From the NCBI RefSeq assembly GCF_030851345.1, contig NZ_JALPNU010000012.1, forward strand, positions 1-64,000: a DNA stretch of 64,000 bases, written 5' to 3'. The stretch is from Marinifilum sp. D714 (GTDB taxonomy: Bacteria > Bacteroidota > Bacteroidia > Bacteroidales > Marinifilaceae). Positions 21,273-59,650 of the stretch are shown piece after piece. The notes beneath the pieces are model-generated. The model was not told the DNA's origin. It made no database searches and saw only the letters and a list, made by a program, of their open reading frames with translations. Each line of letters opens with the position of its first letter. Within the stretch, counting starts at the first letter, position 1. The position numbers were made by a program, and so were the translations under genes.

Positions 21273-21278
21273 TCTCTG

Positions 21279-21353
21279 TCGGGGTGGCAGGATTCGAACC
21301 TGCGACCTCCTGCTCCCAAAGCAGGCGCGATAACCGGGCTACGCTACACCCCG
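21279..21353 (-). tRNA. tRNA-Pro(UGG), copy 3
   Basis: A complete 75-nt cloverleaf on the minus strand: acceptor CGGGGTG/CACCCCG, anticodon stem CCTGC/GCAGG with loop TTTGGGA (anticodon TGG), T-arm GCAGG-TTCGAAT-CCTGC, discriminator A. CCA is not encoded. The sequence is identical to the other two copies. Confidence 0.95.
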
Positions 21354-21408
21354 AAAATTCGGTATTTTTCAGTAAATCGAGAAGTTTTTAAACTCTCAAA
21401 TTTTTCAG

Positions 21409-21483
21409 TCGGGGTGGCAGGATTCGAACCTGCGACCTCCTGCTCCCAAAGCAGGCGCGATAACCGGGCTACGCTACACCCCG
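21409..21483 (-). tRNA. tRNA-Pro(UGG), copy 2
   Basis: Identical in all 75 positions to the neighbouring copies. Spacers to each side also begin with the same AAAATTCGGTA-like stretch, showing that the repeat unit includes flanking DNA. Confidence 0.95.
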
Positions 21484-21546
21484 AAAAATTCGGTACTGTT
21501 TTCGATAAAAAAAGAGAAGCTTTTAAACTCCTCTGAAAATTTTCGG

Positions 21547-21621
21547 TCGGGGTGGCAGGATTCGAACCTGCGACCTCCTGCTCCCAAAGCAGGCGCGATA
21601 ACCGGGCTACGCTACACCCCG
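21547..21621 (-). tRNA. tRNA-Pro(UGG), copy 1
   Basis: First proline tRNA after tRNA-Ser in the transcript; same 75-nt sequence and TGG anticodon as the other two copies. Confidence 0.95.
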
Positions 21622-21628
21622 AAAACTT

Positions 21629-21719
<91 letters not shown>

Positions 21720-57330: not shown

Positions 57331-57789
57331 ATGAAAAAATTAGTTTTACTTTTCATTATTGCTTGTGGGCTTTTTATCGATGCTAGTGCTCAGTCATACG
57401 AATACAAAGTAATCACTACAGTAGAATCTATCGTTCCAATGGGTATTGGTCGTTCAAGAATTATTGAAGAAAAGTCTCCAATTGATGCTAACGCATTTAC
57501 TACAGAAAGAACCGATGGTAAAAAAAGTAAGCAAAAAGATGTTAAAAGATCTGATGCTAAAGTAAGTTTGTTTGCAGAAACAAAACTATTGAACTTCTAC
57601 AGTATTGCAGGTATCAATTTCCAAAACATTGCTTCTAACGATGCTTTAATTTCATCAAAAATCAATAGTTTGATTGAACAAGGTTATGAATTGGCTTTCG
57701 TTACCAGTGGTGTAGAAAGTGATAGTGGTAAAGGTGATGGAAAAGGGATCTTTATTACTCGCTTTATTTTCAAGAGATTGAAGCAGTAA
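57331..57789 (+). CDS. Small exported protein of unknown function
   Basis: 152 residues. Signal peptide 1-20 (KKLVLLFIIACGLF, then ASAQ). The mature part begins SYEYKVITTVESIVPMGIGRSRII and ends with a strand-rich GIFITRFIFKRL. It resembles a conserved Bacteroidota secreted family of beta-rich small proteins, but I assign no function. It is followed by its own terminator and then by the tandem hairpin array. Confidence 0.75.
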   Translation: MKKLVLLFIIACGLFIDASAQSYEYKVITTVESIVPMGIGRSRIIEEKSPIDANAFTTERTDGKKSKQKDVKRSDAKVSLFAETKLLNFYSIAGINFQNIASNDALISSKINSLIEQGYELAFVTSGVESDSGKGDGKGIFITRFIFKRLKQ

Positions 57790-57812
57790 TTTCAGAAAAA
57801 TATTTACAGCTA

Positions 57813-57840
57813 AGCCTCGAACAATGTTCGGGGCTTTTTT
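57813..57840 (+). terminator. Terminator after the small exported protein
   Basis: AGCCTCGAAC, loop AAT, GTTCGGGGCT (one G-T pair), running into six T residues; 24 nt past the stop codon. Confidence 0.88.
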
Positions 57841-58120
57841 GGATCATCTCGTCAATCAACTGACGGGCTTATTTTTTTGGGAAAACGAACTCCTGAACCA
57901 ATTCAGGGGCTTCTTTTTTGAGAAAACGAACTCCTGAACCAATTCAGGAACTTCTTTTTTGGGAAAATGATCTCCTCAGCCAATTGAGGAGCTTCTTTTT
58001 TGAGAAAATGATCTCCTCAGTCAATTGAGGAGCTTCTTTTTTGAGAAAACGACTTCCTCAGTCAATTTAGGGGCTTCTTTTTTGGGAGAATGACCTCTTC
58101 AGCCAACTGAAGAGCACATA
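57840..58120 (+). repeat. Tandem array of seven 41-bp terminator-like hairpins
   Basis: Units begin at 57840, 57881, 57922, 57963, 58004, 58045 and 58086, an exact 41-bp period. Most units contain GAAAAYGA, an inverted repeat around a CCAAT/TCAAT-like loop and, in all but the last, a run of six or seven T residues. The stem halves differ between units (CTCGTCA/TGACGGG, CTCCTGAA/TTCAGGGG, TCCTGAA/TTCAGGA, CTCCTCA/TGAGGAG twice, CTCTTCA/TGAAGAG) while pairing is kept; only the 58045 unit pairs poorly. It occupies most of the 405-bp gap between 57789 and 58195. Confidence 0.85.
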
Positions 58121-58134
58121 CAACAATCTGAATA

Positions 58135-58172
58135 GAATCAAAAAAGGGTGTTCTCATTAAGAAAACACCCTT
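58135..58172 (-). terminator. Terminator after the C1B peptidase
   Basis: AAGGGTGTT and AACACCCTT (58144-58152, 58164-58172) with an 11-nt loop, then TTTTTTGATT on the minus strand. Confidence 0.8.
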
Positions 58173-58194
58173 CCATATATCTTACAAGCAAAAT

Positions 58195-59583
58195 TTAGAA
58201 CATATAATCCCAAACTGGCAATTGTACTGGTTTGCTTTCTGAAGCCTTTTTAGCTTTTTCATCTAAGTACTTCTTGTTGATTACCACACGGAACATATAA
58301 GCATCGAACCATGCGTCGGTGAAAGTAATGTAACCATTGTGACCAGAACCTGATCCCCAAGAGTTCTCGAATTCCCATTTTACTGGCTTTTCGTTTTCAT
58401 CAACATCTACACCAACCAAGGCCATAGCATGTGAAGAACCAGACTGACGAGTTAAGACTCTTGCCTTTTTGTCCATATCGAACTCAACTCCCAATAATGA
58501 AGCGTAATCGTAAGTATTTACATCCATTACACCTGTCTTGCGATTGTGTTGCTTGCCCACATCACATGATGCATACATTGCCTCGTTATTCTTGATAGAA
58601 GCCAATGCAAATTTCTTGATATCTTCATTTGGCAAGTTCAAGTAAGTCCAGTTAACACCTTCCGAAACGTTTCTGTAATTCTTAATTTCATAAACTTTGT
58701 AATACTCACGAGTAGGATCGTTCATGATCATTACCATTTCGATATCAGCATACCCAGGAGCAACTTCTTCTAAAAATTGCTGAGGAGTGTAAGTTTTGCT
58801 TTCGCTGATATTTCCTTTCGAATCCTTAAATCTCCATTCGAATTCCACTGGCGGTTCACCTAAACCTAAAGCAAGCATTCTGTAAATTGATTTTAAAGCT
58901 TCAACTTTAGCAGCTTCCAATTTCTTTGCCGATGCCTTTTCTGCAGCCAACATTCTTAGCTTGTAACCTTCTCCTCTTAACTTCTCATTCAATAGCTTAC
59001 CGATTTCGCGAGTTTTGTTACTCACTTTTGTTTCTGGCATAATCTCAGCTGGAACTACACCATACTTTTTAGCCACATTATAGAATGAGTTCCATACTCC
59101 ACCATCACCAACAGGAGACTTAAAGTAAGTTACAACTTCACGATCATCCATATCACGATCGGCAGTTGCAATAATATTTTCAAGGAACAAGTTTGATTTC
59201 TCAAACATATCCCAGAAATAGTTATAGTTGTGAGAAAAATCGAATGCATTCAAGTTGAATTTCTTCATTGCATAGGGACGAATGGTATTCATAGAAGTAA
59301 ACATCCAACATCTTCCTGAACTTTCCTGATCGGTAATCCCTTTTACATCCACTCTGTATTTAAAGTAATGATCGGTTTTTCCAATTTTTGATCTGTTCAA
59401 AGATAATTCTCTAATACTTTCCGTATTTGTAATCGCGTTTTGGATTGCTTGTGTATTTGCATCTAACTTAAAGCTGGAACGAATCTCTTCAAGTGTTTTT
59501 GCATCTACAGATCCTGATTTCTGAGCTTGTGATACTCCTGTTAATGCCAAAAGCATTGCAGGAACCAATAATAACTTTCTCAT
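58195..59583 (-). CDS. Exported C1B cysteine peptidase (bleomycin hydrolase / PepC type)
   Basis: 462 residues from the ATG at 59583; the frame is open to 59625, but the signal peptide (MRKLLLVPAMLLALTG, then SQAQ) starts here. Papain-type triad: Cys92 in SSGRCWMF, His in SSHAMALVGV, Asn in FENSWG. DQESSGRCW and the LNAFDFSHNYNYFWD block match the C1B subfamily, which forms hexameric aminopeptidases. Classical PepC/BLH is cytoplasmic; here the signal peptide predicts periplasmic or outer location. Monocistronic with a well-formed promoter. Confidence 0.9.
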   Translation of the reverse strand: MRKLLLVPAMLLALTGVSQAQKSGSVDAKTLEEIRSSFKLDANTQAIQNAITNTESIRELSLNRSKIGKTDHYFKYRVDVKGITDQESSGRCWMFTSMNTIRPYAMKKFNLNAFDFSHNYNYFWDMFEKSNLFLENIIATADRDMDDREVVTYFKSPVGDGGVWNSFYNVAKKYGVVPAEIMPETKVSNKTREIGKLLNEKLRGEGYKLRMLAAEKASAKKLEAAKVEALKSIYRMLALGLGEPPVEFEWRFKDSKGNISESKTYTPQQFLEEVAPGYADIEMVMIMNDPTREYYKVYEIKNYRNVSEGVNWTYLNLPNEDIKKFALASIKNNEAMYASCDVGKQHNRKTGVMDVNTYDYASLLGVEFDMDKKARVLTRQSGSSHAMALVGVDVDENEKPVKWEFENSWGSGSGHNGYITFTDAWFDAYMFRVVINKKYLDEKAKKASESKPVQLPVWDYMF

Positions 59584-59622
59584 CTGTACTGTTTGTTTTT
59601 GTTGGTTGTTAAATTGTCCACA

Positions 59623-59650
59623 CAAACATATAAATTAAAATAGGAATCAA
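59623..59650 (-). promoter_or_regulatory. Promoter of the C1B peptidase
   Basis: Minus-strand TTG (59648-59650), 17-nt spacer, TATGTTTG (59623-59630). It lies within the longer reading frame's upstream region and supports the ATG at 59583. Confidence 0.6.

Follow-up and report, generated by a model that had tools for sequence, protein, structure and literature searches.

The 41-bp tandem array at positions 57839 to 58119 of the window, by which we mean the whole 64,000-nucleotide stretch analyzed from Marinifilum sp. D714 (genome of 4.77 Mb in 105 contigs), is probably a dispersed copy of a palindromic tandem repeat that stems from a cassette made up of a DUF6261 gene and its adjacent array. 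This reading draws on comparisons of sequence at the window locus, at other sites of the same genome, and around DUF6261 genes of the order. Most of the sampled DUF6261 genes carry an upstream array with a step of 41 to 42 bases but with letters that are unrelated, a pattern suggestive of a gene-plus-repeat element not yet described. Searches of open-access literature found nothing relevant on DUF6261, for which the one hit was a Streptococcus oralis paper, or on 41- or 42-bp tandem repeats in this group, and among the Marinifilum papers listed no title concerned such repeats.

The repeat family of the window is present at several sites. A unit profile was made from 37 units, including the five full window units (57880 to 58084), which themselves score 55 to 67 bits against it, while the best of 20 mononucleotide shuffles of the window reached 2.9. 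Besides the window array, the D714 genome contains arrays on contigs C33 (nine strong units), C15 (five units), C17 (four strong and two weaker units), and C61 (five units), thus five arrays in total, as well as a lone unit at another position on C61. Searched with a covariance model of the unit, this genome gave 32 matches at E ≤ 1, one of them antisense, and within each array all strong units lie head to tail on one strand. At E ≤ 0.01, 3 of 38 genomes had matches, all of them Marinifilum (D714, M. flexuosum, and M. fragile); D737, McD1.5, and the 33 other genomes had none. In M. breve, examined at the window locus, an array is present there.

Four of the sites are partly shared among relatives: site A (the window locus), site B (downstream of mnmA), site C (downstream of a weakly YgjV-like gene), and site D (next to DUF6261). 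Arrays at sites E and F were seen only in D714; M. flexuosum and D737 have an empty site E, M. fragile has other sequence there, and site F is empty in all three. At site A the number of units runs from 12 in M. breve, where unit pairs alternate, to 7 registers in D714, 6 in M. flexuosum, and 5 in M. fragile (the last weak), with two relics in D737, half a unit in McD1.5, and no units in strain N1E240 of another genus. The initial annotation had raised the possibility of an expanding repeat, and the copy number differences among species agree with an array that expands and also contracts. Five of the six window-family array pieces of M. fragile (L087 to L091) lie at contig ends, and short-read assemblies probably under-count the units there.

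From its position, we take the C33 array to be the home of the window family. A gap of 338 bp separates its nine units from the DUF6261 (PF19775) gene downstream (E = 4.1e-21), which places it in the proposed class of DUF6261-linked 41/42-bp arrays, and 736 bp lie between the array and a gene resembling those of REP-associated tyrosine transposases (RAYTs; REP, repetitive extragenic palindromic). Array, DUF6261 gene, and RAYT-like gene follow in the same order in M. flexuosum. No DUF6261 match was found within the window. A second RAYT-like gene of the D714 genome lies 124 to 146 bp from a 41-bp array of its own, on C19, whose hairpin is unrelated and which also has a DUF6261 paralog beside it, with 69% identity to the home protein. 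This second family has a DUF6261 gene beside the array on both C19 of D714 (genome G000) and C4 of genome G001; three remote arrays of it were recognized by eye in M. flexuosum, and none was found in D714.

The association of such arrays with DUF6261, which the initial annotation did not consider, extends beyond these two families. Among 149 genomes of the order searched for DUF6261, 15 contained it, with 85 matches in all, a patchy distribution with up to 18 copies per genome and 12 in D714. From these, 40 genes of 13 genomes were sampled ahead of the repeat scan, comprising all 12 of D714 and 28 of the 73 others (from 12 genomes, with none from G077 or G153). Tandem Repeats Finder (TRF), at periods of 38 to 46, detected an array upstream of 24 of the 40 genes and downstream of none; an array was already known before sampling at three of them (C33, C19, and C47), which leaves 21 of 37. 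The period was 41 or 42 in 22 of the 24 arrays, 43 in one, and 45 in one. With a TRF score of at least 100, the array midpoint fell within 700 bp upstream of the DUF6261 start at 21 of the 40 genes and between −1200 and −700 at three, and the six other position bins were empty at all 40. The background density of ~41-bp arrays was 17.5 per Mb in stretches of M. flexuosum and G015; in 62 loci surrounding a different gene in other bacteria, it was 2.7 per Mb.

A lag test that does not involve TRF, in which the best self-match had to fall at a lag of 40 to 43 or 80 to 86 and exceed 60 shuffles, was positive for 31 of 39 regions upstream of DUF6261 versus 0 of 39 downstream (4 of the latter showed other lags). 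Among the controls, 2 of 37 regions at −1500 to −750 were positive, as were 2 of 59 regions preceding PepC1 and 3 of 200 randomly chosen M. flexuosum pieces. In its first run the test had been positive for 32 of 40 genes, including 9 of the 16 at which TRF had detected no array. Furthermore, four DUF6261 open reading frames (ORFs) were found in 800 kb of M. flexuosum, of which one (site D) had been known already; each is closely preceded by an array, with periods of 41, 41, 40, and 123 (3 × 41). The unit sequences themselves are unrelated between DUF6261 genes: the mean best circular identity was 0.40 and the maximum 0.53 in 265 pairs with a protein identity below 0.25, two closer gene pairs exceeded that maximum at 0.54 and 0.61, and unit identity did not correlate with protein identity. 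Since a long T-run occurs in only some of the DUF6261-linked families, terminator function is not the common denominator of these arrays.

The DUF6261 proteins are highly divergent, 38 of the 39 others in the sample being 11 to 26% identical to the home protein and one 69%. Their alignment contains two nearly invariant columns, an Asp and an Arg, and the structure is confidently predicted to be all-helical; the model gave no telling fold match, and no transposase family matched in the libraries tried. Apart from RAYT-like genes (4 of 40) and a mixed cluster (5), no conserved neighbor gene was found at the 40 loci. A possible action of DUF6261 on its array is suggested by position.

Within the window, the array sits between two convergent genes. 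The features of this region are as follows.

57331 to 57789, plus strand: upstream gene, an ORF of 152 amino acids with relatives found
57812 to 57836, plus strand: ordinary intrinsic terminator of the upstream gene (terminator scan, 11 pairs)
57839 to 57879, plus strand: unit 1, a divergent hairpin (CTCGTCA/TGACGGG) with T7G
57880 to 57920, plus strand: unit 2, stem type CTCCTGAA/TTCAGGGG, T6
57921 to 57961, plus strand: unit 3, stem type TCCTGAA/TTCAGGA, T6
57962 to 58002, plus strand: unit 4, stem CTCCTCA/TGAGGAG, T6; resembles a terminator on both strands
58003 to 58043, plus strand: unit 5, stem CTCCTCA/TGAGGAG, T6; resembles a terminator on both strands
58044 to 58084, plus strand: unit 6, damaged stem, T6; no site in the terminator scan
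58085 to 58119, plus strand: unit 7, stem CTCTTCA/TGAAGAG without a T-run; −12.4 kcal/mol, z = −4.38
58142 to 58174, minus strand: terminator-like site of the convergent downstream gene (terminator scan, 14 pairs)
58195 to 59625, minus strand: convergent gene for a C1-like peptidase (Peptidase_C1_2; ORF and family match)

The 41-bp period and seven registers reported in the initial annotation were recovered by independent means: the registers start at 57839, 57880, 57921, 57962, 58003, 58044, and 58085; TRF reports a 41-bp array at 57873 to 58106 with 0% indels and 88% matches, together with a longer period of 123 bp; and five copies of a 120-nt direct repeat are spaced 41, 41, 41, and 41 nt from start to start. 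The five units at 57880 to 58084 are close copies, units 1 and 7 being the exceptions, and unit 1 aligns with a first unit in D737. As had been claimed, most units resemble terminators, with G-C pairs followed by a T-run: the scan marks five of the seven on the plus strand and, within the units, also four sites on the minus strand. Unit 6 folds no better than shuffles (−4.1 kcal/mol, z = +0.65). The 1-kb stretch around the array contains 11 terminator-like sites on both strands together, compared with a shuffle mean of 0.5, and a repeat search listed three inverted-repeat pairs within 57700 to 58300 (the array ends themselves were not specifically examined). The array does follow a separate ordinary terminator, which folds strongly (57810 to 57840, −15.8 kcal/mol, z = −5.96). 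The further suggestion that the repeat was born from that terminator is not supported: the terminator's stem is unrelated in sequence to the array units, and the family is found at additional sites, one of them next to a DUF6261 gene. The upstream gene has no Pfam match (0 families). Elsewhere in the window, the minus strand carries three consecutive tRNA-Pro(tgg) genes and one tRNA-Ser(gct) gene at 21278 to 21719.

As to terminator use, 11 remote sites from several families were scored; at eight of them (A, B, C, and five others) the T-run lies on the same strand as a neighboring gene that points its 3′ end at the array. Site F was excluded from this scoring owing to its missing right side. 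At site C, which has one such hairpin in D737, two units in M. flexuosum, and six in D714, the single hairpin of D737 is the sole terminator seen just downstream of the gene, and a unit of the family can therefore, as judged from sequence, serve as the terminator of a gene. A birth of the family at this terminator was considered and rejected: the single D737 terminator has the same stem, but other genera have unrelated terminators there. Because of these unrelated site C terminators and the half unit of McD1.5 at the window site, expansion and collapse are indistinguishable.

If the window array is a copy from a DUF6261 cassette, arrays would grow and shrink through slippage or unequal exchange between units and would occasionally be copied to intergenic sites adjoining gene ends. 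There, they could act as additional intrinsic terminators in the direction of the T-run, either tolerated or used; the home array may serve its DUF6261 gene as a leader or insulator upstream. It is tempting to go further and regard DUF6261 and its array as a two-part element, in which the protein or a recruited partner builds and maintains palindromic arrays and seeds its own copies elsewhere; we consider this possible but doubtful. Such an element would have a built-in ruler of 41 to 42 bp (about four helical turns) that is indifferent to the letters of the unit, and it would explain why period and palindrome last despite the divergence of units and proteins.

Several observations weigh against the derivation from a DUF6261 cassette and against parts of the mechanism. 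Seven of the 39 DUF6261 genes lack upstream periodicity and one shows a lag of 64, and the sole DUF6261 ORF found in the G015 stretches has no array. Conversely, ~41-bp arrays occur away from any DUF6261 ORF found (G001 C2:63200 and several in G015), and the one at G001 C2:339785 lies inside a 121-amino-acid ORF with no DUF6261 ORF in view. The home DUF6261 gene of M. fragile was not found beside its array, which is at a contig end. Palindromes are common in the 24 DUF6261 arrays, not universal, as consensus-unit folding with 40 shuffles each gave z below −2 for 9 and below −1 for 17. The proteins are mostly acidic, with an isoelectric point below 6 in 25 of 40 and above 8 in 6 of 40 (4.9 for the home protein), which speaks against direct nucleic acid binding. 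The orientation is unfit for a terminator at 3 of the 11 scored remote sites (E, where the array is antisense to its neighbor gene, and two others), and the fit at the other eight, taken alone, supports a terminator role weakly.

Other ~41-bp arrays were also encountered. In G015, which represents another genus of the same family, arrays with unrelated units lie on C1 at 1104613, 1127103, 1404810, 1499483, and 1529141 (L356 to L375), and none of the five adjoins the DUF6261 ORF found there. A separate T7G repeat family with a 41-bp step occurs at G003 C3:297478, G002 C53:109911 and C94:4430, and G000 C105:30824; the two loci examined (L392 and L393) have no DUF6261 match, and a unit of this family is present in D737, in which the window family has no model match.

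Stem halves that differ between units in compensating ways had been taken in the initial annotation as a sign of selection on RNA structure. In 37 aligned units (36 distinct), 15 cells show a change on both sides compared with 8.2 after shuffling, above every shuffle, while the count of pairs with such a change is not exceptional (267 of 500 shuffles as high). A larger test covered 76 distinct units from 18 array pieces with a profile score above 19, a cutoff that low-scoring units, window units 1 and 7 among them, do not reach. When each unit keeps its own right arm, 6.13 of 7 pairs form, versus 5.98 when right arms are swapped within the same array (1 of 2,000 as high) and 5.71 when they are swapped across all arrays (0 of 2,000 permutations as high). 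The covariation is carried by columns 16 and 25 (C-G/G-C), which by corrected mutual information take 2nd place out of 820 column pairs; the second-best true stem pair ranks only 269th, and the outer A/T pairs give no signal in these units. All seven stem pairs are formed in 28 units, six in 31, and five or fewer in 17. Compensation in the unit family is thus real but thin: the compensating halves are there, almost wholly as one column pair, and the case for RNA selection made from them is weak, given own-arm pairing on one side and, on the other, a single pair that is itself a C:C mismatch in five M. breve units.

Selection for RNA structure at the window site, whether as a stacked barrier between convergent genes or as a source of small RNAs, would fit the terminator-like sites on both strands, the excess of own-arm over swapped-arm pairing, and the convergent setting. 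We nevertheless regard it as unlikely, since only one pair covaries, 48 of the 76 units have at least one unpaired stem position, only relics of the site A array are left in D737 and McD1.5, and the site E array is antisense to its neighbor. Template switching between the arms of a quasi-palindrome, that is, mutational correction without selection, could yield the same picture and is a serious candidate, though its probability stays below even. It accounts for the two recurrent main stem types, CTCAG..TTGAG and CTGAA..TTCAG, which are linked with a loop base, for the presence of column pairs 16-25, 16-18, and 18-25 among the six highest, and for chimeric arms; intermediates of the G-T type at columns 14-27 and 11-30, however, also fit the RNA explanation.

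For the origin of the array as such, two further explanations were weighed. A plain local minisatellite, in which replication slippage duplicated a terminator-like hairpin with no companion gene and no role, agrees with the 123-bp period, the alternating unit pairs of M. breve, the copy number differences, and the damaged unit 6. It is already disfavored and seems improbable to us, because the same unit family lies at several unlinked sites and because it leaves aside the DUF6261 link and the constant period of unrelated unit sequences. Hardly better are the prospects of a REP-like element, or one like a bacterial interspersed mosaic element (BIME), moved by the RAYT-like transposase near the home array. 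That gene matches NF047646 at 48 to 50 bits, below the cutoff of 80, at the distance from the C33 array given above and at 342 bp in M. flexuosum; close copies (88 to 100% identical, the 100% being D714 itself) occur in exactly the three of five Marinifilum genomes with model-detected arrays, the two array-less genomes having only copies of 35% or less; and the second RAYT-like gene also lies close to an array. Yet three versus two genomes are few, and the two include a metagenome-assembled genome of 80% completeness. Moreover, the palindromes flanking the gene are different ones, with GTAG at their ends as judged by eye, whereas no GTAG adjoins the stem in the consensus of the 37 units, and such a gene lies within about 3 kb of only 4 of the 40 DUF6261 loci, three of which are the query loci of D714. 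On the grounds of the differing adjoining palindromes and the scarcity of the gene at DUF6261 loci, RAYT was rejected as a general partner.

The Marinifilum RAYT-like loci were also inspected in their own right. At L078 (3901 to 4410 and flanks), L222 (4558 to 4667), and L206 (4014 to 4550 and flanks), palindromes with GTAG ends were seen by eye to flank the genes and differ from locus to locus, and the D737 gene beside the array of L222 contains one in-frame TGA.

Known systems share some of these properties. The BIME-2 elements of enterobacteria are tandem intergenic hairpin units of variable copy number in which REP units alternate in orientation; the window family likewise consists of tandem intergenic hairpins in varying numbers, but without alternating orientation and with a period near 41 that holds across unrelated sequences. 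Tandem or bidirectional intrinsic terminators, hairpins followed by a T-run, occur between convergent genes, as the window units do, whereas the window family comprises dispersed tandem copies, and many DUF6261-linked consensus units lack a long T-run. In contrast to clustered regularly interspaced short palindromic repeats (CRISPR), in which unique spacers stand between near-identical repeats, the whole 41-bp unit is repeated head to tail without spacers. Porphyromonas gingivalis belongs to the same bacterial order as Marinifilum. Its BrickBuilt element was described as a miniature inverted-repeat transposable element that is an intergenic tandem minisatellite at many sites per genome, with a period of 23 nt, leader and tail, and small inverted-repeat ends, and with no companion gene mentioned in the abstract (PMC4596501). 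The window family resembles BrickBuilt as an intergenic tandem minisatellite at several sites and differs in its period of 41 nt. Nearest in kind are REPtrons, palindromic extragenic repeats with one gene that has repeats close by and dispersed copies at other places, often downstream of genes (Di Nocera et al. 2013, PMC3733652). The window family is palindromic and extragenic as well, with one companion gene that has repeats nearby and copies elsewhere. The window array differs from REPtrons in the absence of a GTAG head from its consensus and in copy number, with about 30 units in D714 where REP copies often exceed 100 per genome; its units are all head to tail, and its companion gene is DUF6261.

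Arrays of this kind appear to interrupt short-read assemblies and might be used as variable-number markers. DUF6261 gains a strong genomic context from them, namely, a tandem array of constant step and unrelated sequence just upstream. If a mechanism can be shown, the DUF6261-array element may be more than a variant of dispersed palindromic repeats, and if the step is set by that mechanism, this would be a way of making repeat DNA unlike that of REP-RAYT or CRISPR.
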